DNA of 64,000 bases from positions 558,001 to 622,000 of the forward strand of contig NZ_AVPK01000001.1 in the NCBI RefSeq assembly GCF_000768685.1, written 5' to 3'. Shown here in pieces: positions 1,068 through 63,830 of this stretch; positions within the stretch are counted from its first letter, which is position 1, and each line of letters starts with the position of its first letter. The translations under genes were made by a program, and so were the position numbers. The stretch is from Knoellia subterranea KCTC 19937. Lineage in GTDB: Bacteria > Actinomycetota > Actinomycetes > Actinomycetales > Dermatophilaceae. The notes under the pieces are model-generated. The model saw only the letters and a program-made list of their open reading frames with translations. It was not told where the DNA came from and did no database searches.

Positions 1068-4000
1068 TCAGGGAGAAGGGCTTGGCGTCGGTGTCGGAGT
1101 CGCGCTTCCGGACGGTGCGGGCGTCTGGGTGAGCTGCGGGCTCAGCGCAGCAGCCCTGGCAATGGCGTCCTGGAGATCCTTCTGCGCTTCACCGTATGCC
1201 GCGAAGTCACCCTTCTTGAGTGCCGCCTGACCGGCGGCGTTGGCCGCCTCGATGTCACGGATCACCTCGGCCAACTGGGCGCTCGGTGGCGTGGTCGTGG
1301 GAGTGCCCGGTGTGGTGGGCGTCGGAGTTTCCGTTCCTGTTCCACTGTCGCCCGCGGTCGCTCCCGAGTTGCCACCGAAGAGGCCATCGAGGGCCTGGTC
1401 GAGCGTCTCGCCCCACGCGATGCGCTTGCCGAAGACCGCCACGGTGGCCTTGTTCTGGGGGAACGAACCACCCTCTCGCGACGCCTGCACATACATCGGC
1501 TGGACGTACAGCAGGCCCTCCCCGACGGGCAGGGTGAGGAGGTTGCCGTACGTCAGCTGCTTGCCGGACTGGCGGTTCTGCGCGATGAACTGGCTGAGGT
1601 TGAGCGGTTCGGACGGGCTCTGCGACCGCGCCGTCGAGACCTCGATCTGGTTCTGGACCTGACCCGGGCCGTCGACGGCGGAGTTGCGAGGCAGCTCGAG
1701 CAGCCGCATCTTGCCGTAACTCTCGGCCGGCTTGCCCTCGCTCGATCCGGCGTCGGCATCAACCGCGAGGAAGCCGCGAAGGATCTCTCGACCGCTTCCG
1801 GCCGGGATGAACGTCGAGGTGAGCGAGAACGCCGGCGCCTGCTGGTCCGGCATGGCCAGCGACTGGTAGTAGACCGGCTGGTCCTGCGTCGCGTGCGTCG
1901 GGTCCTTCGGCACGCTCCAGAAGTCGCCACCGCCGTAGAACGAGTCGGCGTCGGTGACGTGGTAGCGGGCGAGCAACTGGCGCTGGACCTTGAAGAGGTC
2001 CTGCGGGTAGCGCACGTGCGACATCAGGGCTGCGGACATCTCCGACAGAGGCGACACGGAATCCGGGAAAGCCTTGCTCCACGCCTTGAGGATGGGGTCG
2101 CTCGTGTCCCACCCGTAGAGCTTCACGGAGCCGTCCTCGGCATCGACCGTGGCCTTGACCGAGTTGCGGATGTAGTTGACCTGACCGGCACCGGTGACCA
2201 CGGTGCGCGACGTCGCGCTCACCGAGTCGGAGGTGGCCTCGGTCAGGTCGGTCAGTCGGCTGTTGGGGTAGCGAGCCGTCGTCGTGTAGCCGTCGACGAT
2301 CCACTTGACCCGGCCATCGACGACGGCCGGGTAGGCGTTGCCGTCGATCGTCAGCCAGGGAGCGACCCGCTCGACCCGCTCACGCGGTTGCCGGTGGTCG
2401 AGGATCCGCGACTCGGAGTTGACCGCGTTCGACAGGAGGAACTTCGGCTCGCGGTACTTCACCGCGTAGGCGAGTTTGCGCACGAACGATCCGATGGCCA
2501 CGCCACCCTTGCCGTCGTAGGTGTTGTTGGACTGGCCGCCCTCCCCCTCGTCATTGGGGTAGTCGAACTCGAGCGGTCGGGAACCCTCGGGTGCGCCGAC
2601 GATCGAGTAGCTCGGGGACAGCTCGCCGAAGTAGATGCGCGGCTCGTAGTCGACGCCCATCGGCCCCTTGTCGGAGAACCCGCTGGAGAAGAACTGCGGA
2701 TCACCCTCACTCGTGCGGCGGTTGCCGTAGGCGCCGATGAAACCGAAGCCGTGGGTGTAGACCGTGTGGTCGTTGAGCCAGTTGCGCTGCCCCTCGGGGA
2801 GGCCCTCGATGTTGAGTTCACGCACCGCCACGACCGAGTCGCTCTTCTTGCCGTCGATGGCATAGCGGTCGACGTCGAGAATGTCCGGGAAGGCGTAGTA
2901 CTGCCTCAACCCCTCGAACTGGCGGAACGTCGGGGAGACGATGTTGGGGTCGACGAGGCGGATGCCGGGGATCGTCTCGGCATCGGCACGCAGCTGGCCA
3001 GGCTCGGCATCCGTCGTCGCCGTGTACGGAGTCTTCTCGATGCCATCGATGCCGAAAGCCTTCCTCGTCGCATCGATGTTGCGCTGGATGTATTGCGCTT
3101 CCAGCGACTTCTCCGACGGTCGCACCTTGAGTGACTGCACCGCAGCCGGGTACAGCCCTCCGGCCACGACTGACAGGGCCGTGAGCAGACCGACACCCAC
3201 GAGCGGCAGGCGCCAGCTGCGGGTCCAGATCGAGGCGATGAAGAAGCCGGCGCACATGACGGTGGCGACAGCGAGGATCGCCTTGATGGGGAGGACCGCG
3301 TTGGCATCGGTGTACTTGATCCCCGTGATGAGCGAGGACTCCTTGGTCGTCAGCGTGTAGCGGTCCAGCCAGTAGGCCGCCGCGCGGACCAGGGCCAGCA
3401 GGGAGGCCAGCGTGGCGATCTGGACAAACGCCGCCCGCGTCGTCGTCCCGCGTCCCGGGAGCTGCAGACCGCCGTAGACGTAGTGGGTGAAGGCCCCGGC
3501 GATGAGGGCGAGGAGGAGGACGACGGTGAAGAAGCTGACGAGGAAGCGCAGCCACGGGAGCGTGAAGACGAAGAAGCCCACGTCGAGACCGAACTGCGGA
3601 TCCTTCGTTCCGAACGGAACAGCGTTGCGCCACAACAGGAACGTCTTCCAGGCGCCCATCGCTGCCGCGCCGGCAAGGAGGCCGAGGAACCCCGGAATGA
3701 CGATCGTGGCGAGACGGCGCAGCGGGTCGAGCACCTGTCGGTACTGATCGAGGACCTGGGCCTGCGGGGAGGTGGGGATGCGCAGCGGCCGGGTGCGGTA
3801 GGCGATGATCAGGCTGGCGGCCACCGCTCCGGCCGTCAGGACGAAGGCGGCGATGAAGAGCAGCACGCGGGTGCCGAGCTGCTTCACGAAGACGTCGCGG
3901 AATCCGATCGCGTCGAACCACCAGAGGTCGGTGATGATGCCGGAGCCGAGAAGGGCCAGGACGGCGATCGCACCGAGAATCGCGAGCGTCGTGCCGAGCG

Positions 4001-4802: not shown

Positions 4803-5933
4803 TCAGCACCCGGGCAGCGTGTCCGCCTTGCCCGCGGCGATGGCGCGCACGGCACCCAGCGCATCGTCGAAGCTCCCGATGCGGACCACGGTGAGACCGT
4901 CGGGGACGTGACCCGCAACCTCGTTGCAGTTGTCCGTTGGTGCGAGGAAGTAGTCCGCTCCCCCGTTGCGCGCGCCGTGCAGCTTCTGACGGATTCCGCC
5001 GATGGGTCCCACCGACTCGTCCGGCTCCATGGTCCCCGTCCCGGCGATCCGCTTGCCTCCGGTGAGATCGCCCGGGGTCAGGACGTCATAGACCGCCAGC
5101 GTGAACATCGTTCCGGCAGAAGGTCCTCCGACCTCTCCGGCGGTGATCGTCACATCCACCGGCAGGTCGTAGTGGCGCCCGAGAAGGACGCCGATGATCG
5201 TCACACCGTCGTTGTCCCGCGTGGGGACCGACAGGGCCTTCTCGGCACCCTTGCGTTTCACGACGATGTCGATGGGGGTCCCGGCAGCGTGCGCCCGCAC
5301 GGCTTCCTGGACCGCCGTGGCGTCCGTCGCCTGCGCGCCCGCCACGGACACGAACTCGTCGCCCGCCTCGAGGACTCCCTTGGCCGGGGAACCCTCGGGC
5401 AGTTGTGACACGACGACTCGCTCGGGCACGGTGTGGCCGGTCTCGCGCAGAGCGATGGCTGCTGCGACCTCCTGCGAATCGACCATCTCCGCCGCGTTCT
5501 CCTGTTGGATCTCCTCCCGGGTCGCCGTCTCGGGATAGATCTCCTCGCGCTTGAAGACCTCCTGGTCGTCACGCAGCTTGGCCACTGCGAGGTCGAAGAC
5601 GTTGACACGCACACCCGGCCCACCGATGACCCGCACGGTCGTGAAGTCGAGGGCCCCCTTGGCCGGATAGGCGGTCGCACCGGAGACCTGCACGATGTCC
5701 TTGCCGTCGAGCTTGCCCAGGGTGTTGGTGATGGGTCCGGGCTCCAGCACGACATAGGGCAACGGGACGAAGGAGAGCCCGGCTGCGAGGAGGATGGTGA
5801 CGAAGACGGCCGTGAGCAGGGCCGAGCTCCGGCGGCTCACTGCGTAGGGCTGCACCGGCGAAACGGACTCATGGGGCGCAGGCGTGGACCCGGCCCCCTC
5901 GCTCGGCGAGAAGGGCGACTGCGGCGAGCTCAC
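4803..5933 (-). CDS. Lon-like membrane-anchored PDZ serine protease (YlbL family)
   Basis: About 376 aa. A short cytoplasmic N-terminus leads to one transmembrane helix (about residues 36-56), then a PDZ domain around residues 170-240, and a C-terminal S16 (Lon) protease domain. The Ser-Lys dyad is visible: Ser272 in GGPSAGT and Lys317 in GIRQKLHGA. There is no ATPase domain, so it probably cleaves substrates outside the membrane without ATP. The GTG start overlaps the moaE stop in GTGA, so the two are translationally coupled. Its position matches Rv3194c. Confidence 0.92.
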   Translation of the reverse strand: MSSPQSPFSPSEGAGSTPAPHESVSPVQPYAVSRRSSALLTAVFVTILLAAGLSFVPLPYVVLEPGPITNTLGKLDGKDIVQVSGATAYPAKGALDFTTVRVIGGPGVRVNVFDLAVAKLRDDQEVFKREEIYPETATREEIQQENAAEMVDSQEVAAAIALRETGHTVPERVVVSQLPEGSPAKGVLEAGDEFVSVAGAQATDATAVQEAVRAHAAGTPIDIVVKRKGAEKALSVPTRDNDGVTIIGVLLGRHYDLPVDVTITAGEVGGPSAGTMFTLAVYDVLTPGDLTGGKRIAGTGTMEPDESVGPIGGIRQKLHGARNGGADYFLAPTDNCNEVAGHVPDGLTVVRIGSFDDALGAVRAIAAGKADTLPGC

Positions 5934-6385
5934 GGCATACCCACCCATTCGGTGCCCCCGCCGCCGAGGTGCTGGTGCTTCCAGATCGGAACTTCCGCCT
6001 TGAGCGTGTCGATCAGGTCGCGGCATGCCGCGAACGCGGCGTCACGATGCGGCGCCGATGCGGCCACCACCACGGCGATCTCCCCGATGCCGAGGTGCCC
6101 GCTGCGGTGCACGGCGGCCAACCGCGCTGCCTGCGACCGCCCCGCAACCTCCTCGGCGACCTCGACCAGTCGCGCGACGGCCGTCGGGTGCACGGAGTAG
6201 TCGAGGGAATCGACGTCCTGTCCCCGATCATGGTCACGGACGACACCGACGAAGAGCGTGACACCCCCGCACGAAGGGTCCTGAACGGCGTCCAGGACCT
6301 CGTCCACGGACAGCCGCTGCTCGCGGATCTCGGCCAGGACGACCGTGCCGGTCCTCGGTCCCACACCGGTCACGTCGTGCTCCAC
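5930..6385 (-). CDS. moaE: Molybdopterin synthase catalytic subunit MoaE
   Basis: A 151-aa large subunit of molybdopterin synthase, which transfers sulfur from MoaD thiocarboxylate to precursor Z. Catalytic lysines are seen as Lys129 (TLKAE) and Lys136 (PIWKHQ) near the end. The GTG start is chosen by AGGAGG with a 5-base spacer; longer in-frame starts lack such a site. No moaD, moaA or moaC lies here, so the partner must be encoded elsewhere. A MoeZ-type activating enzyme sits at 26.3-27.6 kb. The stop overlaps the start of the Lon-like protease gene. Confidence 0.93.
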   Translation of the reverse strand: MEHDVTGVGPRTGTVVLAEIREQRLSVDEVLDAVQDPSCGGVTLFVGVVRDHDRGQDVDSLDYSVHPTAVARLVEVAEEVAGRSQAARLAAVHRSGHLGIGEIAVVVAASAPHRDAAFAACRDLIDTLKAEVPIWKHQHLGGGGTEWVGMP

Positions 6386-7901: not shown

Positions 7902-8479
7902 CGGCGGTGGATCAGGGCGTGACGGAGCGCTTCGCCCACCTCCACGCCGACGCGGTCACTGCGTTGTCCGCATGGACGTCCCCGGACGCAACCCAGGAAC
8001 GGTTGCGGACGGCATACCTCGCTCATCTGGAAGCACACCGGGACGCGGTCGCCAAAGCCGGCCCACCCGCACACCTCACCGTCGGCTGCCTCGTCATCAG
8101 CCCGGACGGTGAGCACGTCCTCCTCACGCACCACCGGCGGGCCCGCGAGTGGTTCCAGTTCGGCGGTCACCTCGAGGCCGGCGATGCGTCCCTCCACGCC
8201 GCGGCGACCCGCGAGGGGCGCGAGGAGTCCGGCATCGCCGGGTTGGTGCCCGAGCGAACGCTCGTCCAACTCGACCGGCACACGCTGAGTGGCGACTTCG
8301 GACGATGCCGCGAGCACCTCGACGTGCGTTTCGCGGCCGTCCTCGACCGAGACGTGGAACCACATGTGAGTGACGAGTCGCTCGACGTCGCCTGGTGGCC
8401 GACGAACGCACTGCCGGAAGGGACGCGCGACGAGCTGTCCCTGCTCGTGGAGGCGACGCGGCGGACTCTGGGGCTCTGA
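7898..8479 (+). CDS. NUDIX hydrolase
   Basis: 193 aa. The Nudix box is GHLEAGDASLHAAA followed by TREGREESGI, with the catalytic REGREESG core intact. An Asp replaces the first box Glu and the spacing is one residue longer, a variant seen in other actinobacterial Nudix enzymes. Substrate unknown. It is translationally coupled to the upstream Zincin_2 gene (GTGA overlap) and convergent with the YgjP-like protease. Confidence 0.85.
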   Translation: MTAVDQGVTERFAHLHADAVTALSAWTSPDATQERLRTAYLAHLEAHRDAVAKAGPPAHLTVGCLVISPDGEHVLLTHHRRAREWFQFGGHLEAGDASLHAAATREGREESGIAGLVPERTLVQLDRHTLSGDFGRCREHLDVRFAAVLDRDVEPHVSDESLDVAWWPTNALPEGTRDELSLLVEATRRTLGL

Positions 8480-11632: not shown

Positions 11633-11702
11633 GCGGTCGCGACCTGACCCGACTGCGCACGAGCGATGCCGGGTATGCCGTCCGCCCGCCTTCGGACGCA
11701 CC

Positions 11703-12173: not shown

Positions 12174-12178
12174 GAACC

Positions 12179-13836: not shown

Positions 13837-13953
13837 GGGACGAGCGAACCACGCCACACAAAACGGGTCCACCCGGAAAGGCCGGCGTCTCAGCACGTGG
13901 TCGGCGGACGGCATACGCGTCAGGAGTGGTGCGGCAGAACGGATCCGGACATG

Positions 13954-15021: not shown

Positions 15022-17196
15022 TTACGTTGTGGCAGAACCGGATTCGTCCGGAAAAAAAGTTTCAGAAATATCGGAATCGGCGCGTTCGGCACCACTCAGG
15101 AGCGCGAGAACGGCCGCGCCGTAGCGGTCGAGCTTGGCCTGACCCACACCGCTGATCGTCGCGAGCTCGCGCAGATCGGCCGGCGTGCGCTCGGCGATGG
15201 CCGTGAGCGTCGCATCCGTGAAGACGACGTATGCCGGGACGCTGGCTTCCCGGGCCGTCTCCAGTCGCCACTCGCGCAGACGCTCGAATGTCGCCTCGTC
15301 GTAGGTGGCGGGGCAGGTCTTGCAGCGGCCCACGGTCCGCTCGGCCGCCGTGCCCAGATCAGCACCGCACGTGCGGCAGGTGCTGCGGCGGGCGGGCTTG
15401 GTGGCTCCGCCACCCGCCCCGCCGACGCGCGTCGATCGTTTGGGCTGCGAACGCGCACCCTCGCCGAGGACGCTCGCGGTGCCGTCGAGGAATCGCGAGG
15501 GACGGCGCGTGGCGCGAGCACCCGGGGTGCGCGCGCCCGCCCACGAGAGGACGAGCCGGTCCCGTGCCCGCGTGACGCCGACATAGAGCAACCGTCGCTC
15601 CTCCTCGATCGCCTCGGGTGTGTCCGCCATCGTGATCGGGAGATAGCCGTCGGAGCAGCCGATCAGGAAGACCGTTCCCCATTCGAGGCCCTTGGCAGCA
15701 TGCAGGGACGCGAGGGTGACGCCCTGGACCGACGGTGCGTGCTGGGCAGCCATCCGCTCGTCGAGTTCGCGGATGAACGCAGGCATCCGGGCTTCGGAGT
15801 CGGCGACGAACAGGTCGTCCGCGAGCGCCGCGAGCGCCGCCAGGGACTCCCAGCGTTCGCGGGCAGCACCTCCGGCCACCGGCACTTCACGCGACCAGCC
15901 GGCACCGAGGAGGACGTCCCGGACCAGTTCGGGGAGCTGGACCGAGCCATCGTCCGAGCGGGCGGCACCACGCAGGAGCACGATCGCGTCGCGCACTTCC
16001 TTGCGCTGGAAGAAGCGCTCACCGCCTCGGACGAGGTAGGGGATGCCCTGGTCGGCGAGCGCCGACTCGACGACCTCGGACTGACCGTTCGTGCGGAAGA
16101 GGACGGCGATGTCTGCCGGCGAGACCCCGTCGGAGATGAGGTCGGCGATGCGGGCCGCGACGGCTGCGGCCTCGGCGGGGTCGTCGGGGTGGTTCTGCAG
16201 CTCCGGATCCGGCCCGGTCGCCCGCTGTGCCTCGAGCACCACCGATCCACTGCGTCGTCCACCGCTCGGCGTGCGCAGCACGAGGTTGGCCAGGCCCACG
16301 ATCTCGGGTGTCGATCGGTAGTTGCGCACGAGCTCGACCTGACGCGACTTCGGGTGGCGGGACCGGAAGCCGAGGAGGTGAGCCGGCGTGGCCCCGGTGA
16401 ACGAATAGATCGTCTGGGCCGGGTCACCGACGACGCAGATGTCCTGTCGGTCCGCGAGCCACAGGTCGAGCAGTCGCTGCTGGAGGGCGTTGACGTCCTG
16501 GTACTCGTCCACGACGAAGCTTCGGTACTGCTCGCGAACGGCACGCGCGACCGTGTCGTTCTCCTCGAGGATGCCCACCAGGACGAGCAGGACGTCCTCG
16601 AAGTCGATGACTCCCCGCTCCGCCTTGACCTCCTCGTAGGCCGCGAGCACGCGCGCCATCGCGGTGAGGTCGAGCCCCGGCGCCTCGCGCCCGGCCGCCC
16701 GTGCCGCGGCTGCATAGGTCTCGGCCGTCAGCATGCTGACCTTGGCCCACTCCACCTCGGCCGCGAGGTCGCGAATTCCGGTGCGGTCAAAGCGCATTCG
16801 CAGCCGACCGGCCGCCTCTGCCACGGCCCCCGCCTTGTGCGGCATGACCTCGGGCGCGGCACCACCGATGGCCTGGGGCCAGAAATAGTGGAGTTGTCGC
16901 AGGGCGGCGGCGTGGAAGGTCCGGGCCTGTACTCCCCCGACTCCGAGGTCACGCAACCGCGTCCGCATCTCACCCGCGGCCCGCGCGGTGAAGGTGACCG
17001 CCAGCGTGCGCTGCGGCTGCTGCGCACCGGACAGGACGGCATACGCAATGCGGTGGGTGATCGCGCGGGTCTTGCCGGTCCCGGCTCCGGCGAGCACCAC
17101 CATCGGACCGGTGGGGTTCGCGGCAACCTCGCGCTGCTCCGGGTCGAGGCCGTCGAGGACCGCATCGGCGGACGGGTGTGCGGGCAGGGAGGACAT
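15022..17196 (-). CDS. uvrD2: ATP-dependent DNA helicase UvrD2
   Basis: 724 aa, superfamily 1A helicase. Walker A is GAGTGKT (37-43), motif II is VVDEYQDVN, and further helicase motifs include GDPAQTIYSFTGA and VTRARDRL. After the motor come a four-cysteine zinc element (CRTCGADLG... CKTCP) and a C-terminal HRDC domain, the UvrD2 layout. The ATG at 17196 is preceded by TAGGAT plus 7 bases, a leaderless start that discards the longer frame. It is divergent from mrx1 and upstream of whiB7 on the same strand. Confidence 0.95.
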   Translation of the reverse strand: MSSLPAHPSADAVLDGLDPEQREVAANPTGPMVVLAGAGTGKTRAITHRIAYAVLSGAQQPQRTLAVTFTARAAGEMRTRLRDLGVGGVQARTFHAAALRQLHYFWPQAIGGAAPEVMPHKAGAVAEAAGRLRMRFDRTGIRDLAAEVEWAKVSMLTAETYAAAARAAGREAPGLDLTAMARVLAAYEEVKAERGVIDFEDVLLVLVGILEENDTVARAVREQYRSFVVDEYQDVNALQQRLLDLWLADRQDICVVGDPAQTIYSFTGATPAHLLGFRSRHPKSRQVELVRNYRSTPEIVGLANLVLRTPSGGRRSGSVVLEAQRATGPDPELQNHPDDPAEAAAVAARIADLISDGVSPADIAVLFRTNGQSEVVESALADQGIPYLVRGGERFFQRKEVRDAIVLLRGAARSDDGSVQLPELVRDVLLGAGWSREVPVAGGAARERWESLAALAALADDLFVADSEARMPAFIRELDERMAAQHAPSVQGVTLASLHAAKGLEWGTVFLIGCSDGYLPITMADTPEAIEEERRLLYVGVTRARDRLVLSWAGARTPGARATRRPSRFLDGTASVLGEGARSQPKRSTRVGGAGGGATKPARRSTCRTCGADLGTAAERTVGRCKTCPATYDEATFERLREWRLETAREASVPAYVVFTDATLTAIAERTPADLRELATISGVGQAKLDRYGAAVLALLSGAERADSDISETFFPDESGSATT

Positions 17197-48730: not shown

Positions 48731-49768
48731 CTATGTGGCGAGTTCCAGGGGTGGGCCGTGGTGGGTGCACCAGCCGATGACGTCGTCGTCGACCTCGATC
48801 TGAGGGCGCCACCACCCCTCGGTCGGCAGTGGGTCCGGGTCCTCGAGCGCGACCCGCGCGAGCGGCATCCGCGCCCGCGCCTCGTCGACCGCCGCGAGCA
48901 TTGCGTCGTATTCGGCGCGCGGCCAGTACTGCCGCGTGATCGAGTGCCAGACCACGGTGAGTACGTCATCGGCGGCCGGCCGATCGACCTGGTCCCGCAC
49001 CCACTCGGCGCCGCCGGCGCGATCGACGGTCACCGGAGTCCCGCGCAGCGTCTCGAGGGCACCGCGCAGCCGCGCGTCCCGCTCCGGCATGTGCGGCCAG
49101 ATGAAAGAGCGCAGGTATGCCGCCCCCTCACCTGTCGTCGCATCGAACGGTGCGAGGTCGCAGCCTCTGCGTTCGAGGACCTCGAACTCCTCCGGAACGA
49201 AGCCCGGCGCCTCGCAGCCATCCAGCACGAGCGGCGCATCGACGGGCCCTGCGGTCCAACCGTCACCGACGAACCGGTAGCGGTCGACGAGCAGTCCCAG
49301 CCCGGCCGACGCACCGGGCTCGAGCAGCCGAATCTGACGAATTCCGTTGCGGCGCAACGCTTCTGACAGTCCAGCCAAGAGGGCGACAGTCCGACCGACC
49401 TCGTTGGTCTGCGGTGCCACGTCAAGGCCCTCCCGCAACTCGGCCACGTGCGAACGCAGGACGGGCTCCAGAGCCGGCCACACGGCATACACATCCGGCG
49501 CAGCCGAACCACCCGCAGAGGGATAGAACTCCGCGAGCTCGGGAGCGTCCCCACGCAGGACGATCCGGTGGATGCCCGCGAGCAGTCGAAGCTGCACCAT
49601 GTCCCCCGGCGACGCATCCTCATGTCCGGCGAGAATCTCGCGCACGACTCCCCCGCGGTCCCAGTCGTCCGCCAGCACTTGCACGAGTACGCCATAGAGG
49701 TGCTCCGTGCGCCCGCTGAAGTGGTTGCGCATGCGCTGGCCGATATCGGCTCCGTCGTAGGCAGTCAC
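48731..49768 (-). CDS. DUF2332 family protein
   Basis: 345 aa, actinobacterial DUF2332. It has a SAM-methyltransferase-like look in parts (LLEPGASAGLGLLVDRYRF) but no confirmed function; the closing WWRPQIEVDDD... is typical of the family. Leaderless GTG (TATCGT plus 7 bases) overlapping the opposite -10 of the aminopeptidase gene. The 50 bases after its stop hold a weak hairpin (CCCAAC/GTTGGG). Confidence 0.85.
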   Translation of the reverse strand: MTAYDGADIGQRMRNHFSGRTEHLYGVLVQVLADDWDRGGVVREILAGHEDASPGDMVQLRLLAGIHRIVLRGDAPELAEFYPSAGGSAAPDVYAVWPALEPVLRSHVAELREGLDVAPQTNEVGRTVALLAGLSEALRRNGIRQIRLLEPGASAGLGLLVDRYRFVGDGWTAGPVDAPLVLDGCEAPGFVPEEFEVLERRGCDLAPFDATTGEGAAYLRSFIWPHMPERDARLRGALETLRGTPVTVDRAGGAEWVRDQVDRPAADDVLTVVWHSITRQYWPRAEYDAMLAAVDEARARMPLARVALEDPDPLPTEGWWRPQIEVDDDVIGWCTHHGPPLELAT

Positions 49769-49786: not shown

Positions 49787-51283
49787 GTGAGCGAAGAGCA
49801 GAAGCAGGCAGAGAACCGGGCCCGTCCGACGACCGAGGAGTTCCGCGGTTTCGTCCGCGAGGACTGGGCCGAGCGCCGACCTCAGGCCGACGCCCAGTCG
49901 CCCGTCGCTCCGTATGCCGCAGCTCGTCGTGCGCTCGTGAGCGCCGCATTCCCGAAGCAGCGGCTCATCGTGCCCGCCGGCGGTCTCAAGGTCCGCAGCA
50001 ACGACACGGACTACGTCTTCCGCCCGCACAGCGCGTTCGCGCACCTCACCGGCCTCGGCGCCGACCGTGAGCCGGACGCGGTGCTCGTCCTCGAGCCGAC
50101 CGACGACGGGCACGAGGCGATGCTCTATTTCCGCCCCCTCGGCGAGCGCGACAGCGACGAGTTCTTCGCCGATGCTCGCTACGGCGAGTTCTGGGTCGGG
50201 GCACGTCCCAGCCTGGCCGACATCGAGCTCGAGCTCGGCCTCACCGCGAAGCACATCGATGAGTTCGAGGCCGCCGCGGCCAAGGACGCCGGTGAGATCA
50301 CCGTGCGTCTGGTCCGTGACGCCGACAAGGACCTCACGGCCGTTCTCGACACGGCCCGCGTCGAGAACGGCGCCACCGAGGAGACCTTCGTCGAGCAGGA
50401 CGACTCGCTGGCGCACGCCCTGTCCGTGCTCCGCCTGACCAAGGACGAGTACGAGATCGAGCAGATGCGTGAGGCCGTCGCCGGCACGCACGTCGGGTTC
50501 GAGGCCGTCATCGCCGAGCTCGAGCGAGCCGTAGAACTGGGTCGCGGTGAGCGCTGGATCGAGGGCATCTTCGGTCTCCACGCCCGCCATCAGGGCAACG
50601 GCGTCGGCTACGACTCGATCTGTGCGGCTGGCGACCACGCCAACACGCTGCACTGGATCCGCAACACCGGCGAGGTCACCGACGGCGAGCTCGTCCTCCT
50701 CGATGCGGGTGTCGAGGTCGATTCCCTCTACACCGCCGACATCACCCGCACCCTCCCCGTGTCCGGAACCTTCACGGACGCGCAGCGCGAGATCTACGAC
50801 GCGGTGTATGCCGCGCAGGAGGCCGGGATCGCGGCGGCCCAGCCGGGGGCGAAGTTCTCGGACATCCACGCCGCAGCGATTCGCGTCATTGCCGAGCACC
50901 TCCACGCGTGGGGTCTGCTCCCCGAGGGCGTCACCGTCGAGGACACCCTCGACACCGAGCACGGCCAGTACCACCGCCGCTGGATGGTCCACGGCACCTC
51001 GCACCACCTCGGCATCGATGTCCACGACTGCGCCCTCGCGACCCGCACTGAGTACATGGACGCCGAGCTGCAGCCGGGCATGGTCCTCACGGTCGAGCCG
51101 GGCCTCTACTTCAAGGCCGACGACCTCAAGGTCCCTGAGCGGTTCCGGGGCATCGGCGTGCGCATCGAGGACGACATCGTCATCACGCCGGACGGCAACG
51201 AGAACCTCTCGGCCGCCATGCCGCGCAGCAGCGCCGACGTCGAGAAGTGGATCGCCGAGATCCGCGAGGAGACCGCCGACTGA
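49787..51283 (+). CDS. pepP: Xaa-Pro aminopeptidase (M24B)
   Basis: 498 aa. Aminopeptidase P N-terminal domain, then the pita-bread domain with metal ligands Asp in LLDAGVEVDSLYTADITR, His in HGTSHHLGIDVHD, and two Glu (VEPGLYF and RIEDDIVIT). It removes the N-terminal residue before proline. The GTG start has CACGAT 6 bases upstream; it faces DUF2332 across 18 bases. Confidence 0.93.
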   Translation: MSEEQKQAENRARPTTEEFRGFVREDWAERRPQADAQSPVAPYAAARRALVSAAFPKQRLIVPAGGLKVRSNDTDYVFRPHSAFAHLTGLGADREPDAVLVLEPTDDGHEAMLYFRPLGERDSDEFFADARYGEFWVGARPSLADIELELGLTAKHIDEFEAAAAKDAGEITVRLVRDADKDLTAVLDTARVENGATEETFVEQDDSLAHALSVLRLTKDEYEIEQMREAVAGTHVGFEAVIAELERAVELGRGERWIEGIFGLHARHQGNGVGYDSICAAGDHANTLHWIRNTGEVTDGELVLLDAGVEVDSLYTADITRTLPVSGTFTDAQREIYDAVYAAQEAGIAAAQPGAKFSDIHAAAIRVIAEHLHAWGLLPEGVTVEDTLDTEHGQYHRRWMVHGTSHHLGIDVHDCALATRTEYMDAELQPGMVLTVEPGLYFKADDLKVPERFRGIGVRIEDDIVITPDGNENLSAAMPRSSADVEKWIAEIREETAD

Positions 51284-51295: not shown

Positions 51296-52045
51296 TCAGC
51301 GGCGGTTGACGACGTCGAGGGCGAGCGCGTGCGTGACGCCCTCGACGTTCGCGGCCTTCGCGCCCATCTCGAGGATCATCGGCACCAGCTGCGCCGGCTT
51401 GGGGAAGTCGTCCGGAAGAGCAGAGTTGTATGCCGCGTGCTCCTCGAGCGATGCGACCGCCACCTCGACCTTGTCCCCGACGTCGACGTAGTGGGTCGGC
51501 GTCATCGGCCCGGCGAAGGCCAGCACCTTGACGTGCCACGGCTCGAAGCCCTCGTCGACGAGTTCCGGGAAGATCCACCGGTTGCCCGCATCGGCGACCG
51601 CGTCCGCGCAGGCCAGACCCACGGCCCGATGGTCGGCCTGGTTGAGCATGCCGCCGACGAACCGGTTGCCGTAGTCGCCCGTGATGACGAGGTCGGGGCG
51701 GCGGCGCCGGATCTCGCGGGCGATGTCGCGGCGCAGGGCGAGGGAGTACTCGACATTGCCGTCCCGGTGGGTGCCGAAGTCGACCTCGGTCACGCCGACG
51801 ACCGCGGCACTGGCTCGCTCCTCCGCCTCCCGGACGGCGCCTGCCTCGTCGGGGTGCATCGTGTCGATGCCCGCCTCCCCGCGCGTGAGCAGGAAGTAGG
51901 TCACGGTCTTGCCCGCCTCAGTCCACTTCGCGACGGCAGCGGCGGTGCCGTACTCGATGTCGTCAGGGTGGGCGACGACGCACAGCACCGACTCGAAGTC
52001 CTCGGGAAACAGTTCCAGCGCAGGCGCGTTCGATACAGAGTCCAT
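51296..52045 (-). CDS. PIG-L family deacetylase (N-acetylglucosamine-type)
   Basis: 249 aa. The zinc motif AHPDDIEYG (residues 25-33) and later MLNQADHRAVG define the PIG-L/LmbE family (MshB, BshB). It deacetylates a GlcNAc-type or related substrate; mycothiol relatives belong here but the MshB identity cannot be claimed. Leaderless ATG (TAGCGT plus 7 bases). Convergent with pepP. Confidence 0.88.
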   Translation of the reverse strand: MDSVSNAPALELFPEDFESVLCVVAHPDDIEYGTAAAVAKWTEAGKTVTYFLLTRGEAGIDTMHPDEAGAVREAEERASAAVVGVTEVDFGTHRDGNVEYSLALRRDIAREIRRRRPDLVITGDYGNRFVGGMLNQADHRAVGLACADAVADAGNRWIFPELVDEGFEPWHVKVLAFAGPMTPTHYVDVGDKVEVAVASLEEHAAYNSALPDDFPKPAQLVPMILEMGAKAANVEGVTHALALDVVNRR

Positions 52046-52667: not shown

Positions 52668-52750
52668 GCCCTCAGTCTCCCACCCGCGACTGGACGTTCG
52701 CTGGAAGGCAACTGACCGGCATACCTGCGTGTGCAGCGGCGCACACGTCT

Positions 52751-54056: not shown

Positions 54057-54307
54057 GCGTGAATGCCACCTTCATGAGTGTGGGAAAGACCTTTGTTGAG
54101 TATGCCGTCCGCCCACCTCACGCTGTACCCGCTCGGCGCGTGATTCCCCCCACGCGAGGGCCCCACCGCGGGCGGTTAATTCGTTGGCGAGAGGGCTGCG
54201 AGGTGTGTCACGCTGGGAGGCGAGCACCCGGCATACGCCGTCGTGCCCCGAGATCGAACCCGTCCGCGCGATGCACGAGCATCCCGCCGAGCAGAAGGAG
54301 GCGTGAC

Positions 54308-56071: not shown

Positions 56072-56941
56072 CTAGCGGGTGGAGATCACCTCGTGAACCG
56101 CCAGAACGCGCCGGGCGATGTCGACGTGGAGGTTCTCGACCATGCGCCCGTTGTGGGTGACGACGCCGCTGCCGGCGCCGGCCTCCCACGCCTCGAGGAT
56201 CCCGCGGGCGTCTGCGACGGCCTCCTCGCTCGGCGCGAAGATCGCGTTGCAGGGCTCGACCTGCCCCGGGTGGATGAGGGTCTTGCCGTCGAAGCCGAAG
56301 TCACGACCCTGGACGCACTCGGCCTCGAATCCCTCGGCGTTCTTCACGTCGTTGTAGACGCCGTCGAGGATGGCGATCCCCGCCTCGCGCGCCGCGAGGA
56401 GCGAGAGCTGGAGCGAGGTGAGCAGTGGCCCGCGACCGGGGACGTGGTCGGCGCGCAACTCCTTGACGAGGTCATTGGTCCCCATGACGAGGACGGCGAG
56501 TCGCGGTGAGGCAGAAGCGATCTCACGGACGTTGAAGATCGCCTCGGGCGTCTCGATCATCGCCCAGAGCTTCGTGTGCTCCGGCGCACCGGCAGCCTCG
56601 AGGGCAGCCACGAGCGAGCGCACCTCGTCGGCCGAACCGACCTTGGGGACGACGACGCCGGCCGGGCCCGCGGCCGCCGCAGCAGCGAGGTCCGCGTCGT
56701 GCCACTGGGTGCCGATGCCGTTGATCCGGATCGTCACCTCACGCTGGCCGTACTCACCCGAAGCCGCTGCGGCACAGGCGTTCTCGCGCGCAGACTCCTT
56801 GTGGTCGGGACCAACGGCGTCCTCGAGGTCGAGGATGAGTCCGTCGACCGGGAGGGTCTTGGCCTTCTCCAGCGCGCGCTCGTTCGAGCTCGGCATGTAG
56901 AGGACGGAACGACGAGGCGTGTATGCCGCCTGCTCCCCCAT
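56072..56941 (-). CDS. HpcH/HpaI/CitE-type CoA ester lyase (short form)
   Basis: 289 aa. The CitE motif YMPSSNERALEKAKT near the start, LILDLEDAV, then VVPKVGSADEV and IETPEAIFNVREIA fit an acyl-CoA-ester lyase. It cleaves or condenses malyl/citramalyl-type CoA esters; the exact substrate is not known. The ATG overlaps the stop of the second CitE gene (TGATG), so they are translated together. Confidence 0.88.
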   Translation of the reverse strand: MGEQAAYTPRRSVLYMPSSNERALEKAKTLPVDGLILDLEDAVGPDHKESARENACAAAASGEYGQREVTIRINGIGTQWHDADLAAAAAAGPAGVVVPKVGSADEVRSLVAALEAAGAPEHTKLWAMIETPEAIFNVREIASASPRLAVLVMGTNDLVKELRADHVPGRGPLLTSLQLSLLAAREAGIAILDGVYNDVKNAEGFEAECVQGRDFGFDGKTLIHPGQVEPCNAIFAPSEEAVADARGILEAWEAGAGSGVVTHNGRMVENLHVDIARRVLAVHEVISTR

Positions 56942-58050
56942 CAGGACGCCTCACCTTCGGTGCCGGTCGCCTCGGTGCCGGTCGCCTCGGAAGGTGACGG
57001 GACGGCATACAGGCTGGCAAGTTCGGGGTCGTTCGCGGAGAGACGCTCGGCGAGTTCGAGGATGACGAGGCACTGCTTGAGCGAGGCGTCGTCCTCCATC
57101 TTGCCGTCGAGCATGACCGCGCCGGTGCCGTCGCCCATGGCCTCCTTGACGCGGCGCGCGTGCGCGACGTCCTCGGCGGAGGGGCTGAAGACCCGCTTGG
57201 CGATGTCGACCTGCACCGGGTGCAGCGACCACGTGCCGACGCAACCGAGGAGGAAGGCGTTGCGGAACTGGTCCTCGCACGCGACGACGTCCTTGATGTC
57301 GCCGAAGGGGCCGTAGTACGGGAAGATCCCGTGCATCGCGCAGGCGTCGACCATGCGGGCGATCGTGTAGTGCCAGAGGTCCTGCTGGTAGGTCCTGCGG
57401 TCGCCCTCGATGTTGCCGTCGATGGGGTCCTGACGGACGAGGTAGCCCGGGTGACCGCCACCGACGCGCGTCGTCTTCATCCGGCGATCAGCAGCGAGGT
57501 CGGCCGGGCCGAGGCTGATGCCCTGCATGCGCGGGGACGCACCGGCGATCTCCTCGACGTTGGCCATGCCGCGGGCGGTCTCGAGGATGGCGTGGACGAG
57601 GATCGGGCGCTTCAGGCCGGCGCGCGCCTCGAGCTGGGCGAGGATCCGGTCGACGTAATGGATGTCCTCGGGGCCCTGCACCTTGGGCACCATGATGACG
57701 TCGAGCTTGTCGCCGATCTCGGTGACGAGGGTGATGAGGTCGTCCAGGACCCACGGGCTGTCGAGGCTGTTGATGCGCGTCCACAGCTGCGTGCTGTCAC
57801 CGAAGTCGGTCGCCTTCGCGATGTCGACGAGTCCCTGGCGGGCGGCCTCCTTGCGGTCGGCCTTGACGGCGTCCTCGAGGTTGCCGAGCAGGACGTCAAC
57901 GGTGCCGACCATCCCGGGGACCTTGGCGGCCATCTTCTCGTTGCTGGGGTCGAAGAAGTGGATCATCCGGCTGGGGCGGGCCGGGACCTCACGCACGGGT
58001 GCCGGAGCACCCACCGCGAGGGGGCCGAAGAAGTCCTTGGGTGAGCGCAT
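56941..58050 (-). CDS. CitE-type CoA ester lyase, long form (Mcl-like)
   Basis: 369 aa. Related to beta-methylmalyl/malyl-CoA lyases: [50 protein letters not shown], and [20 protein letters not shown]. The C-terminus is a repeated acidic Thr/Gly tail. Leaderless ATG (TACCGT plus 7 bases). It is coupled to the short CitE downstream; with MaoC at 42.7 kb this suggests C5 dicarboxyl-CoA metabolism. Confidence 0.87.
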
Positions 58051-58103: not shown

Positions 58104-58652
58104 GTGAGTGGTTCGCCCGGCCCGGCCCCCGAACATGCCGCAATCAATGTCACGCGCCTCCTCGCCGAGGCCGCGAGCAAGTCCGGCGTGCTCTGGATCG
58201 AGGTGCCCGACAAGGGAACCCACGCGGTCTGGTTCGTCTGGCACGACGATGAGGACCCACGCGGCACCGGCCCGGCGGCCTACGTCGTCTCGGGCCCCGG
58301 CGAACAGACCCTGCCCTTCCTGCCCGATGAGGTCACGGTCATCTTCCGCTCCAAGGACACCGGCGGTCGGCTGCTCCGACTGCGTGCCACCGTGCGGACA
58401 CTCGACCCCACGCAACCCGGCTGGGACGAGGCGGCCGACGTGCTCCGCGCCGACCGGCTCAACGCGACCGGCGACGTCCTCGCCAGGTGGCGCGAAGGCG
58501 CGACGCTCCACGTCCTCTCACCACACGGCATACCGGACGAAGGACCGGGAACGTATGCCGCGGAGTCGGGGCGCGTGACCGTGTCACCTGCGCGCGGCAC
58601 GACGGCGCGCTGGCGACCGTGGCACTGGCGTGGCCGAGGCGGGACCGCGTGA
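58104..58652 (+). CDS. Conserved hypothetical protein beside the MgtE-like gene
   Basis: 182 aa, soluble with a basic Trp/Arg-rich C-terminus ([12 protein letters not shown]). It holds the position of the uncharacterised protein next to the MgtE-like gene in M. tuberculosis. Family not recognised. The GTG start is supported by frame only. It ends 22 bases before the MgtE-like gene. Confidence 0.65.
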
Positions 58653-59973: not shown

Positions 59974-60550
59974 GCGCCGCGAGCGCAGCTCGCGCCTCGA
60001 CCAGCCGCGCGAGGCCCGCCGCCAGTTCCTCACCCGCCCCGAAGCCTTCACGGAGGAGGCGTTCGGGGTTCTCTCGGAGAAGTTCGCCCGCTTCATGGGG
60101 ACGGCCTACTTCCTCATCGGCATGACCGTCTTCGTCGTCGTCTGGGTGCTGTGGAACCTCCTCGCGCCGCGCGCCTGGCGCTTCGACGACTACCCGTTCA
60201 TCTTCCTCACGCTCATGCTCAGCCTCCAGGCCTCGTATGCCGCGCCGCTGATCCTCCTCGCCCAGAACCGGCAGGCCGACCGCGACCGCGTCATGCTCGA
60301 ACAGGACCGCACCCGCGACGAGCGCAACCTCGCCGACACCGAGTTCCTCACTCGCGAGGTGGCGGCGCTGCGCATCGCCATGCGCGACTCGGCGACCCGT
60401 GACTTCGTCCGCGGCGAACTGCGCGACCTGCTCGACGAGATGGAGGAGCGTGGCCTCGTCGTCACCCGTCGCGTCGACCTCGACGACAGTGACGCGTCAG
60501 ACAGCCCCAAGGCCCGGACCGATGAGGGTGGATCCGCGCAGGCGACTTAG
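59966..60550 (+). CDS. DUF1003 membrane protein
   Basis: 194 aa. Two hydrophobic helices (MGTAYFLIGMTVFVVVWVLW and YPFIFLTLMLSLQASYAAPL, described separately) lie between charged N- and C-terminal regions; a long helical C-terminus follows. DUF1003 function is unknown. It overlaps the MgtE-like gene by 8 bases with GAGGTGAT upstream, which suggests a common complex. Confidence 0.9.
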   Translation: MAERRERSSRLDQPREARRQFLTRPEAFTEEAFGVLSEKFARFMGTAYFLIGMTVFVVVWVLWNLLAPRAWRFDDYPFIFLTLMLSLQASYAAPLILLAQNRQADRDRVMLEQDRTRDERNLADTEFLTREVAALRIAMRDSATRDFVRGELRDLLDEMEERGLVVTRRVDLDDSDASDSPKARTDEGGSAQAT

Positions 60551-60559: not shown

Positions 60560-61705
60560 ATGTCTGTCACTGCTGCACCCGTGAGTGACGAGGCGCTGCG
60601 CGCCGCGCTCGCGACGGTCAACGACCCCGAGATCCGCAAGCCCATCACCGAGCTCGGGATGGTCGAGTCGGTCGAGTGTGACGACACCGGCCGCGTGGCG
60701 GTGACGATCCTCCTGACGATCGCCGGCTGCCCCCTCAAGGACACCCTGACCAAGGACACGACCGCTGCCCTCCTGAAGGTCGACGGAGTCACCGCGGTCG
60801 ACGTCACGCTGGGCGTGATGTCCGACGAGCAGCGGGCCGAACTGCGCACGAACCTCCGCGGCGGCGCTGCCGAGAAGGAGATCCCCTTCGCCAAGCCCGG
60901 CAGCCTGACGCGCGTGTATGCCGTGGCGTCCGGAAAGGGCGGTGTCGGCAAGTCCTCCGTGACTGCAAACCTCGCTGCCGCACTCGCCGAGCAGGGCCTC
61001 AAGGTCGGCGTCGTCGACGCCGACATCTACGGCTTCTCCATTCCCCGCATGCTCGGGGTCGAGCACAAGCCGACCCAGGTCGACGAGATGATCCTCCCGC
61101 CCATCTCGCACGACGTGAAGGTCATCTCGATCGGCATGTTCGTGCCGGGCAACCAGCCCGTCGTGTGGCGTGGCCCGATGCTCCACCGTGCGTTGCAGCA
61201 GTTCCTCGCCGACGTCTTCTGGGGCGACCTCGACGTCCTCCTGCTCGACCTCCCGCCGGGCACGGGTGACATCGCCATCTCGGTGGCCCAGCTCATCCCG
61301 GGCGCGGAGATCCTCGTCGTGACCACGCCCCAGCAGGCCGCCGCCGAGGTGGCCGAGCGCGCCGGCGCCATCGCCGTGCAGACCCACCAGCGCGTCGCCG
61401 GCGTCATCGAGAACATGTCGTGGCTCGAGCTCCCGGACGGCTCCCGCCAGGAGATCTTCGGCGCCGGTGGCGGTCAGACGGTCGCCGACTCCCTGACCCG
61501 CAGCATCGGTGCGCCCGTGCCGCTCCTGGGGCAGATCCCCCTCGACACGACCCTGCGCGTCGGCGCCGACCAGGGTATGCCGGTCGTCCTCGGCGAACCC
61601 ACCTCCCCGGCCGCCGTCGCCCTCCGCGGCATCGCCCGCGAGCTCGGCACCCGCAGCCGAGGCCTCGCTGGCCGCTCGCTGGGACTCACCCCCTCAGGTC
61701 GCTGA
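60560..61705 (+). CDS. mrp: Mrp/NBP35-type iron-sulfur carrier ATPase
   Basis: 381 aa. N-terminal MIP18/DUF59 domain (Cys57 in GCPLKDTL) and a ParA-type P-loop GKGGVGKSS (125-133), then VDADIYGFSIPRML and VWRGPMLHRALQQF. It delivers Fe-S clusters. The CXXC that binds the transferable cluster in most homologs is absent here: IENMSWLELPDGSR takes its place. Leaderless ATG (TAGCAT plus 6 bases). Confidence 0.93.
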   Translation: MSVTAAPVSDEALRAALATVNDPEIRKPITELGMVESVECDDTGRVAVTILLTIAGCPLKDTLTKDTTAALLKVDGVTAVDVTLGVMSDEQRAELRTNLRGGAAEKEIPFAKPGSLTRVYAVASGKGGVGKSSVTANLAAALAEQGLKVGVVDADIYGFSIPRMLGVEHKPTQVDEMILPPISHDVKVISIGMFVPGNQPVVWRGPMLHRALQQFLADVFWGDLDVLLLDLPPGTGDIAISVAQLIPGAEILVVTTPQQAAAEVAERAGAIAVQTHQRVAGVIENMSWLELPDGSRQEIFGAGGGQTVADSLTRSIGAPVPLLGQIPLDTTLRVGADQGMPVVLGEPTSPAAVALRGIARELGTRSRGLAGRSLGLTPSGR

Positions 61706-62315: not shown

Positions 62316-63830
62316 TCAGTTGCTTCTGCCCTGGAGCACCATCTTGACATCCCGCGATGCGCCGTCGCGCACCACGGTCAGAGTCACGGTCGATCCGACC
62401 GGCTTGGACCGGATCGCGACGACGAGTGCGTCCGGGTCGGCCATGGGTCGGCCCTCGAAAGCGGTGATGACATCGCCGGCCTTGAGGCCCGCCTTGTCGG
62501 CCGGTCCACCCGGTGTGACGGCCGGGGTGTCCCCCGAGTCCGTCGCGATCCGCACACCCTCACCCTGGTACTCGCGGTCGAGCAGAACGCCGATGATCGG
62601 GTGCTCGGCCTTGCCCGTCCGGATCAGCTGGTCCACGGTGATCTTGACCTGTGCACTGGGGATGGCGAAGCCCACGCCGATGTTGCCGCTCTGGCCACCG
62701 ATCGCGTTGCCGGCCACCCGCGCGATGGCGGAGTTGATCCCGATGACCCGCCCCTCCATGTCGAGCAGGGGACCGCCCGAGTTGCCGGGGTTGATGGCCG
62801 CGTCGGTCTGGATGGCGTTGATGAAGGACTGGTCGTTCGCCTCACCCGGCGTCACCGGTCGGTTGAGAGCGGAGATGATGCCGGTCGTGACCGTCGACTC
62901 CAGGCCAAGCGGTGCGCCCACCGCGATGACGGGGTCGCCGACCACGACGGTGGTCGAGTCACCGAGGGGCAACGGCGTGAGGTCGGTGCGGTCCACCTTG
63001 AGCACGGCAAGGTCGTAGGAGACATCGCGTCCCACGATCTCGGCCTTGGACTGCTTCCCGTTGGTCAACACGACGGTGATCTCGCCACCGTTCGCAGCGG
63101 ACGAGACGACGTGGTTGTTGGTGACGATGTGTCCTTTGTCGTCGAGGACCCACCCCGAGCCGGTGCCGTCGCCATCAGCGGCCTCGACCCGAATCGTGAC
63201 CACGCTGGGGATCGCCTTGGCCGCGATGTTGGCCACGGACCCATCCGGCCGGGTCGTCGCGCCGGGACCCGGCTCCGGGGTCGCCCCCGAGGACACCGGG
63301 TCGAAGCCGTCCAGCCGGTCCGAAGACCCGAGCCACCCGCCGAGAAGCCCACCGCCGAGTCCGGCAAGAAGCGCAGTGAGGCCAGCGATGAGGAAGACGG
63401 CCAGCCACCCCGGGCCGCGCCGTTCGCGTGCCGGGGCGGCAGCGGGCGTCGACAAGGCATAGGGGTTGGCCGACGGGTCCTGATGGTGTGCGGTCGGTGC
63501 GGCGTACGAGCCCGGCGACGCGTAGGGGTTCGAGGTGGCGTGGGGGCCCGACGCGGCATACGGATTCTGTGCAGGAGGCGCGTACGGCGAGGGCGCGGCC
63601 TGGGTCGACCGATCCGACGGCTCGTGCGCCCAAGCGGTCCACGCAGTCTGGGCCGACGCCTCGGCCGACTCATCGACAGGGAGCCGCGGGGCCTGCCCCG
63701 GAGCCGGCCCGAACTCCTGGGTGCGGCTCAGATCGACCTCCAGAGTACGACTCAGGTCGACCTCCTCCGTGGGCTCGGGGTCGACATGGGGCCGGTCGGC
63801 GTCGTCGGGGCGTCCGCTGTCCTCGGTCAT
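62316..63830 (-). CDS. htrA: HtrA/DegP-like serine protease with PDZ domain
   Basis: 504 aa. A disordered Pro/Ala-rich cytoplasmic N-terminus of about 135 residues, a TM helix (about 142-164), then the protease with His240 (NNHVV), Asp273 (YDLAV) and Ser351 (GNSGGPL), then a PDZ domain. It acts on misfolded proteins outside the membrane. The ATG at 63830 lies 7 bases after a CAGAAT box. Usually regulated with SigE/RseA, but these are beyond the window edge. Confidence 0.95.
   Translation of the reverse strand: MTEDSGRPDDADRPHVDPEPTEEVDLSRTLEVDLSRTQEFGPAPGQAPRLPVDESAEASAQTAWTAWAHEPSDRSTQAAPSPYAPPAQNPYAASGPHATSNPYASPGSYAAPTAHHQDPSANPYALSTPAAAPARERRGPGWLAVFLIAGLTALLAGLGGGLLGGWLGSSDRLDGFDPVSSGATPEPGPGATTRPDGSVANIAAKAIPSVVTIRVEAADGDGTGSGWVLDDKGHIVTNNHVVSSAANGGEITVVLTNGKQSKAEIVGRDVSYDLAVLKVDRTDLTPLPLGDSTTVVVGDPVIAVGAPLGLESTVTTGIISALNRPVTPGEANDQSFINAIQTDAAINPGNSGGPLLDMEGRVIGINSAIARVAGNAIGGQSGNIGVGFAIPSAQVKITVDQLIRTGKAEHPIIGVLLDREYQGEGVRIATDSGDTPAVTPGGPADKAGLKAGDVITAFEGRPMADPDALVVAIRSKPVGSTVTLTVVRDGASRDVKMVLQGRSN

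Follow-up and report, generated by a model that had tools for sequence, protein, structure and literature searches.

Introduction

Several kinds of short words that are iterated at high copy number are known from bacterial genomes. The Chi sites of RecBCD/AddAB are words of about octamer size that are present in many copies and vary from lineage to lineage, the Chi of Escherichia coli being itself an octamer, and are typically biased to one replication strand. HIP1 of cyanobacteria is a palindromic octamer that recurs very often, both inside and outside coding DNA. Closest to the case considered here are the words that mark DNA for uptake in natural transformation. For the DNA uptake sequences (DUS) of the Neisseriaceae, the published accounts describe thousands of copies, an intergenic preference, inverted pairs forming hairpins, high persistence of sites, absence from newly acquired DNA and family-wide dialects that follow the phylogeny (PMC3630211, PMC2397512), with eight dialects distinguished (PMC3630211) and elements with a single mismatch described in Neisseria (PMC2397512). 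Equally, the uptake signal sequences (USS) of the Pasteurellaceae are presented in the same literature as a short word in thousands of copies with two versions within the family (PMC3630211), the receptor of which, ComN, is given in a further report as a prediction only (PMC12616744). Here we analyse the octamer GTATGCCG in a stretch of 64 kb of the actinobacterium Knoellia subterranea KCTC 19937 (contig NZ_AVPK01000001.1, positions 558,001 to 622,000), the whole of which is called the window in the following, and in the genomes of its family, the Dermatophilaceae. The octamer is iterated to an extreme degree, selected as DNA and persistent at orthologous sites; in related genera it is replaced by other words, and its sites are lost between lineages with differing words. 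With a probability of roughly 0.8, judged from genome comparison, we consider GTATGCCG, in its best form GTATGCCGTCCGC, to be the DNA uptake sequence of K. subterranea, with dialects in related genera.

Iteration of the octamer in the window and in the genome

The window, with a GC content of 69.5%, contains 47 exact copies of GTATGCCG, 26 on the plus and 21 on the minus strand, which span positions 1194 to 63561, where a second-order Markov model of the window expects 1.28, an excess of 37-fold. The preferred 13-mer form GTATGCCGTCCGC, in which the octamer is continued by TCCGC, occurs ten times exactly, five times on each strand. A previous sequence-only reading of the stretch had arrived at about 47 copies of the octamer in both orientations, within genes and between them, and at ten exact copies of the 13-mer, all of which the exact counts and the placing of genic and intergenic copies confirm. 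In the whole genome (3,566,056 bases or 3.57 Mb in 33 contigs), 1233 copies on one and 1211 on the other strand add up to 2444, one per 1.46 kb, as compared with 54 copies of a control, the pattern read backwards. The word is therefore far above expectation and not confined to the window, contrary to the two outcomes by which that reading would have been refuted, a count near a Markov expectation or copies in this region alone. Such iteration throughout a genome is a trait of DNA uptake sequences.

Genome-wide results are word counts complemented by sampled stretches, and the finer analyses refer to a readable sample of 464 kb, composed of positions 1-400000 of contig C1 and the window, in which 301 copies of GTATGCCG are seen and 10.2 expected. 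In this sample, the 24 octamers with one mismatch sum up to 340 occurrences with approximately 334 expected, so that only the exact word is in excess. The TCCGC continuation follows 56 of the 301 copies, namely 35 of the 90 between genes and 20 of the 205 inside them among those so placed, and the flanks hold at most about 0.5 bit of information per position beyond the octamer; since the flanks beyond the preferred continuation carry so little information, GTATGCCG is a word rather than a dispersed element. A scan of the window against Rfam gave one tRNA at gathering score and no other family, and a search of window positions 1-25000 against plasmids returned, in the best 10 of 95 records, a stretch of tRNA and a single weak match to a gene.

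Selection on the DNA rather than on the protein

Genes in the 464 kb were placed with a simple purpose-built gene finder (405 genes, 86% coding), by which 205 copies are genic, 90 intergenic and 6 at gene edges, corresponding to a density of 1.36 per kb between genes versus 0.52 per kb within them. Shuffling of synonymous codons over all genes, which leaves each protein and the overall codon usage unchanged, yielded 15.4 coding copies (standard deviation 3.7, maximum 24, 200 shuffles) as compared with the 205 seen. Two of the six frames accommodate 174 of the 205 genic copies, the sense frame nnG-TAT-GCC-G (Tyr-Ala) and the antisense frame nCG-GCA-TAC (Ala-Tyr). Where tyrosine stands in the context G-Tyr-GCC-G, it is spelled TAT 104 times and TAC 14 times, while over all genes TAT accounts for 506 of 2411 tyrosine codons and TAC for 1905, which bears out the earlier observation of a TAT-GCC spelling against the TAC preference at these sites. 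Equally, alanine before TAC is spelled GCA in 70 of 109 cases where the preceding codon ends in CG, and in 5 of 170 cases elsewhere. The octamer is maintained as DNA and not through the protein.

Orientation, inverted pairs and hairpins

Over 400 kb of one contig (119 plus and 135 minus copies), a sample without positions of the replication origin and terminus, all eight 50-kb bins were free of strand bias, and no regional pattern was seen along it; a strand-polar word such as the FtsK-orienting polar sequences (KOPS) or similar was rejected on this lack of polarity. Inverted pairs within 60 bases number 14, where about 5.8 are expected from uniform placing, and direct pairs number one. In most of the 14 the pairing of the arms, as judged by eye, extends past the octamer. 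The hairpin at 42607-42657 has a stem of 22 bp, a folding energy of -44.7 kcal/mol and a z score of -11.4, and lies between convergent predicted genes with ends at 42600 and 42674. The proposal that the pair at 42613-42651 forms a terminator thus stands as far as the hairpin and its position are concerned; no T run follows, and a terminator is only plausible. Location in permissive places together with terminator-like inverted pairs, known from uptake sequences, is found in K. subterranea but absent in several samples of the other dialects.

Persistence at orthologous sites and scarcity in foreign-looking DNA

The congener G065, at 82% identity, has the octamer unchanged at 41 of the 46 window copies that align, whereas random octamers are kept at 25.4% (binomial p ~1e-19) and near-miss octamers in 9 of 33 cases; here as in the following, unaligned sites are left out. 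The copies in the window are listed below with coordinates, strand and state in G065, octamer standing for GTATGCCG and 13-mer for the octamer with its GTATGCCGTCCGC extension, and the state referring to the octamer.

1194-1201, plus, octamer, same in G065
5933-5940, minus, octamer, same in G065
8005-8017, minus, 13-mer, octamer same in G065
11673-11685, plus, 13-mer, octamer same in G065
13904-13916, minus, 13-mer, octamer same in G065
15229-15236, plus, octamer, same in G065
17037-17044, minus, octamer, same in G065
18217-18224, plus, octamer, same in G065
18507-18514, minus, octamer, same in G065
20013-20020, plus, octamer, same in G065
22796-22803, minus, octamer, same in G065
26495-26507, plus, 13-mer, octamer same in G065
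27537-27544, minus, octamer, same in G065
30027-30034, plus, octamer, same in G065
30113-30125, minus, 13-mer, octamer is GGATGCCG in G065
31915-31922, minus, octamer, same in G065
32040-32047, plus, octamer, same in G065
33905-33917, plus, 13-mer, octamer same in G065
35626-35633, minus, octamer, same in G065
36109-36116, minus, octamer, same in G065
36834-36841, plus, octamer, same in G065
38026-38033, minus, octamer, same in G065
38220-38227, plus, octamer, same in G065
39539-39546, plus, octamer, same in G065
40464-40471, minus, octamer, same in G065
42607-42657, no strand, hairpin of inverted octamer pair, 22-bp stem, 7-nt loop, terminator-like, without T run, between convergent predicted genes
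42613-42625, minus, 13-mer, left hairpin arm, octamer same in G065
42639-42651, plus, 13-mer, right hairpin arm, octamer same in G065
45140-45152, minus, 13-mer, octamer is GTATGACG in G065
45812-45819, plus, octamer, same in G065
45926-45933, plus, octamer, same in G065
47993-48000, plus, octamer, same in G065
49115-49122, plus, octamer, changed in G065
49483-49490, minus, octamer, same in G065
49912-49919, plus, octamer, same in G065
50806-50813, plus, octamer, same in G065
51428-51435, plus, octamer, changed in G065
52717-52724, minus, octamer, same in G065
54100-54112, plus, 13-mer, octamer same in G065
54229-54236, minus, octamer, same in G065
56921-56928, plus, octamer, same in G065
57003-57010, minus, octamer, same in G065
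58526-58533, minus, octamer, inverted pair with 58553, same in G065
58553-58560, plus, octamer, inverted pair with 58526, same in G065
60235-60242, plus, octamer, same in G065
60916-60923, plus, octamer, same in G065
61575-61582, plus, octamer, changed in G065
63554-63561, minus, octamer, not aligned to G065

In the reverse direction, 42 of 53 aligned copies of G065 are kept in K. subterranea. Around comEC, four congeners of approximately 80% identity keep 10 of 12, 10 of 12, 9 of 12 and 6 of 8 (4 unaligned) of the K. subterranea copies, and at the Tad locus all 10 aligned copies are kept in G017, with 8 of 13 in the opposite direction. Even G022, a member of another genus with the same word at 75% identity, has six sites in common, which represent 6 of 8 from the side of K. 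subterranea and 6 of 7 from its own, while random octamers are kept at 12-13%. The persistence at orthologous sites which had been suggested as a check is therefore high, and conservation of sites above that of the surrounding DNA, as in uptake sequences, applies to GTATGCCG, if more weakly for one pair of genomes considered below (G096 to G025).

The largest gap between copies, 15.1 kb with 62.5% GC and zero copies (C1:209843-224976), has a probability of 0.015 under random spacing after correction for 253 gaps. Judged from protein sequence and not by database search, its genes are of a polysaccharide type (a chain-length determinant, a glycosyltransferase, a UDP-sugar dehydrogenase and a sugar transferase), and this low-GC locus has perhaps been horizontally acquired. 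Window DNA that cannot be aligned to G065 has one copy in 7.5 kb, 0.13 per kb versus 0.81 per kb in aligned DNA, with few loci involved; the densities from the side of G065, 0.39 unaligned versus 0.94 per kb aligned, include DNA past the window ends and are no test. The start of the K. subterranea contig (C1:1-5000) has 55.9% GC and is without the octamer.

Dialects across the family

The distribution of the word was followed in 119 genomes of 53 genera of the Dermatophilaceae and in a sample of 296 genomes of the class, 8 of which belong to this family. Over the 119 genomes, the density of GTATGCCG is bimodal, with 61 genomes at 200 or more copies per Mb, 50 below 60 per Mb and 8 in between. 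Of the 288 class-sample genomes that belong to other families, none shows a similar iteration and none reaches 60 per Mb by reading of the counts. A mild excess, 170 copies versus 27 of the control, is seen in one of them (G393, family f29).

Genomes with little GTATGCCG were screened for other k-mers, leaving out the short or partial contigs L030, L032, L034 and L048, and the words that emerged were subsequently counted genome-wide. GTACGCCG exceeds 1000 copies in 10 of the 119 genomes with up to 4185 (K. subterranea 211), and GGATGCCG exceeds 2000 copies in seven with up to 4480, G001 having 1336, others at most 1040 and K. subterranea 571. CCCCTTCG is present in 1813-3180 copies in seven genomes, which are all sampled members of two genera, with 396 copies in the next highest genome, and CGATGCGG reaches 2007 copies in G057 alone, with a density some 2.4 times that of the genome ranking next. 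A further word, GTACGGCG, turned up in sampled stretches of G069. Strand counts are near equal for all words counted genome-wide. With cut-offs set after seeing the counts (200 per Mb for GTATGCCG, hand-picked high counts for the other words), 85 of the 119 genomes and 41 of the 53 genera pass for one of five words, 61 genomes with GTATGCCG and 24 with GTACGCCG, GGATGCCG, CCCCTTCG or CGATGCGG; the sharing of a word or its dialects by related taxa known from uptake sequences thus extends over most of the family. The 34 genomes without a word include the intermediates G104 (404 copies of GTATGCCG), G105 (785 of GTACGCCG) and G019 (752 of GTACGCCG), and screening of 20-60 kb each in 13 of the 34 revealed no clear new word.

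Read as GTATGCCG, GTACGCCG, GTACGGCG, GGATGCCG, CGATGCGG and CGAAGGGG, the words fit a common frame, NNANGNNG, which may be partly due to chance because strand and register of the words were chosen. In the genus g44 (G044, G079, G103 and G118), GGATGCCG and GTATGCCG occur together in differing proportions, for example 2195 and 1217 copies in G044 and 4480 and 361 in G103, possibly a dialect switch in progress.

The fate of old sites was followed between lineages with different words. Between close lineages (79-82% identity), none of 26 old GTATGCCG sites is kept as compared with 20-29% of random octamers, comprising 0 of 10 from G039 to G026, 0 of 3 and 0 of 3 from G025 to G069, and 0 of 10 from G096 to G069, a comparison that overlaps the same region of G069 as the preceding one. 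From G039 to G026, one old site is in the other dialect and most are at TAC-type spellings. In the more distant pairs of K. subterranea with G040, G103, G081 and G001 (73-76% identity), 0 of 21 sites are kept and 4 are in the other dialect. Conservation therefore goes with the sharing of the word and not with protein or DNA shape. In dialect samples of 20-140 kb, inverted pairs outnumber direct pairs by 6 to 2 in G037 and 7 to 1 in G038 for CGAAGGGG, and by 4 to 0 in G026 and 3 to 2 in G103 for GGATGCCG, and the ratio of intergenic to genic density among these samples ranges from 4.9 (G037) down to 0.38 (G057).

Competence and pilus machinery

Competence machinery as expected alongside an uptake sequence is present. 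ComEC occurs in 115 of the 119 family genomes, in K. subterranea following a gene for ComEA with SLBB and helix-hairpin-helix domains, and all of the 28 genomes tested for a type II secretion (T2SSE)/Tad-type ATPase (PF00437) have one. The Tad/Flp locus of K. subterranea, at approximately 100.7-106.7 kb of contig C28, encodes in this order a CpaE-like protein, TadA, TadB, TadC, a DUF4244 pilin, a TadE-like and a TadE/G-like protein, the latter two matching below the Pfam cut-offs, and is followed by a helicase gene in opposite orientation. Among 28 Tad loci compared, one of which is cut by a contig end (G024), TadA is present in 28, TadE in 26 and a Flp pilin in 24. According to two reports, Micrococcus luteus uses comEA/comEC and two tad loci for transformation (PMC12849477, PMC6370729). 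The comparison of the Tad loci revealed no pilin that tracks the dialect. A tree of TadA (26 rows, good support for 8 of 23 inner branches) groups partially by word, with one clade of the four GTACGCCG genomes, two genomes without a word and two g9 genomes, and with GTATGCCG in both halves.

As discriminators of word-bearing genomes, ComEC with its presence in 115 of 119 was discarded, and so was PilM as a marker of type IVa pili, which occurs in 5 of 119 genomes without a link to the word. One PilM gene, in G025 (C2:210707-221974), has a strong T2SSE ATPase match nearby, resembling a type IVa pilus locus. Two tandem sortase-domain genes (PF04203, E values 3e-18 and 3e-17), 66% identical to each other, lie between tadC and flp of K. 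subterranea (C28, approximately 104.3-105.6 kb; L101:12310-13635), and the other 27 Tad loci compared, one of them cut by a contig end, have no homologue of theirs in their predicted proteins. In G032, the region L108:10263-17111 holds a truncated TadA and then unrelated genes, one of which by eye is similar to a restriction-type endonuclease; this disruption is probably an insertion.

Discussion

As a DNA uptake sequence, the word would make DNA of the own kind preferred during natural transformation. It would be bound, on DNA that is still double-stranded, by a DNA receptor at the cell surface. This receptor would most likely be a minor pilin of a Tad/Flp pilus, with the TadE-like or TadE/G-like protein encoded at approximately 101-107 kb of contig C28 as the candidate. 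Bound DNA would be pulled in, and ComEA together with ComEC would carry one strand inside for recombination by RecA. Copies would accumulate and get repaired as word-bearing fragments enter and replace alleles without the word, and a change in receptor specificity would lead to a change of dialect with subsequent decay of the old sites. With less assurance than for the word of K. subterranea itself, but still probably, this whole family of high-GC Gram-positive bacteria has evolved sequence-specific uptake via Tad/Flp pili independently of Neisseria and the Pasteurellaceae, with at least five dialects (GTATGCCG, GTACGCCG, GGATGCCG, CGAAGGGG and CGATGCGG; a sixth, GTACGGCG, in the samples of one genome), which all fit NNANGNNG and would partition gene flow between genera. 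The analogy with Neisseria and Pasteurellaceae drawn initially gains support from copy number, intergenic density, codon choice, hairpins, persistence, dialects and the foreign-looking gap, some dialect samples being less clear.

Several observations weigh against this explanation. Copies with one mismatch, a kind of element described in Neisseria, are not in excess in the 464 kb, and the spacing of the copies is close to random (coefficient of variation 0.95; Kolmogorov-Smirnov test versus an exponential distribution, p = 0.03). The enrichment of CGATGCGG in G057 is only modest. No inverted pairs were found in the samples of G040, G081, G069 and G016, the intergenic density does not exceed the genic one in G040 (ratio 0.92), G081 (0.55), G023 (0.94), G007 (0.81) and G057 (0.38), and in the sample of G016 none of 13 copies is intergenic. 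Despite their common dialect, G096 and G025 share few sites, 2 of 9 being kept from G096 to G025 and 2 of 3 in the opposite direction; with its low density of 221 copies per Mb, G025 may be in the course of losing the word. Genomes without an iterated word are equally endowed with ComEC and the Tad ATPase, the presence of which hence does not predict the word, so that the machinery does not prove the uptake explanation. Finally, in the word-rich G032 (2476 copies) the candidate Tad locus is broken, with TadA truncated and the remainder not in the following 9 kb, which speaks against that Tad locus as the reader of the word or for another Tad locus in this genome, and for this reason uptake via Tad/Flp pili as a family-wide trait is rated slightly lower.

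Alternatively, the word might be a Chi-like signal that regulates the AdnAB or RecBCD helicase-nuclease in break repair, with dialects following changes of the enzyme. Lineage-specific versions of an octamer, absence from a foreign-looking locus and conservation of sites are also expected of Chi, but the bins near 1:1 lack its orientation bias (as far as 400 kb of one contig without origin and terminus positions can tell), the 14 to 1 preponderance of inverted pairs with extended hairpins does not suit it, 34 of the 119 genomes, 13 of which were screened for further words on 20-60 kb, fall under the cut-offs for all five words although all need break repair, and the 30- to 45-fold excess is above the level usual for Chi. 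This option, which the sequence-only reading had listed for AdnAB, consequently fares worse than an uptake sequence for want of strand bias and is unlikely. A site of a nucleoid or chromosome-organising protein, or of a defence system hitherto not described that marks self DNA, would be in line with copies spread along the sampled chromosome on both strands, in genes and between them, and with fewer copies in foreign-looking DNA; it has somewhat slimmer prospects, as 400 kb show neither a regional nor a strand pattern, replacement of words across genera is unusual for such proteins, and pairing into hairpins has no obvious role.

A spreading short repeat without cellular function, be it of the repetitive extragenic palindromic (REP), the miniature inverted-repeat transposable element (MITE)-like or another selfish type, would account for many copies, some of them in hairpins. 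The conserved longer unit of REP and MITE elements is not seen in flanks of at most about 0.5 bit per position, the genic copies reside mostly in two codon-tolerable frames and sites are kept even against another genus, which leaves this previously listed option a poor fit and highly improbable. A by-product of codon or oligonucleotide bias might be considered as each of the 119 GC-rich genomes has GTACGCCG, GGATGCCG and CGATGCGG in moderate numbers, but the synonymous shuffles refute it for GTATGCCG in the K. subterranea genome, with the density between genes exceeding that within them and the reversed control being rare in addition, and its probability is close to nil.

The uptake-word strategy has so far been described for two Gram-negative families. 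A literature search, with subscription papers and preprints outside its coverage, returned no title on uptake sequences in Actinobacteria among the matches listed, and searches for the octamer strings in literature text gave unrelated titles among the matches listed. What appears to be new is a known uptake-word logic in a new phylum with a new pilus type and new words. If the uptake explanation is true, the family would provide replicate evolutionary experiments on whether uptake words are products of selfish drive or selected for conspecific sex, with a dialect count in one family nearly that of the Neisseriaceae. Furthermore, it would predict the members of the family that can be transformed and the tagged DNA suited to each, make a Tad-type uptake receptor searchable by dialect and let the word serve as a simple barcode by which gene flow between genera is read from genomes.

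Comparison with known systems

The likeness is greatest to the DUS of the Neisseriaceae, read by the minor pilin ComP, with respect to copy number, intergenic preference, hairpin pairs, persistence and family-wide dialects. Unlike the Neisseria DUS with its core 5'-CTG-3', GTATGCCG is a different word in a different phylum with a different envelope, and instead of type IVa pili it would be associated with Tad/Flp pili, PilM being found in 5 of 119 genomes and the receptor being a candidate only. With the USS of the Pasteurellaceae, GTATGCCG has in common that it is a short word in thousands of copies with versions within the family, the USS differing by a 9-mer core with other letters. In contrast to the Chi sites of RecBCD/AddAB, GTATGCCG is without strand bias and has hairpin pairs. 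Like HIP1, finally, it is an octamer that is repeated very often within coding DNA and outside it, but unlike the palindromic HIP1 it is non-palindromic and diversified into dialects.

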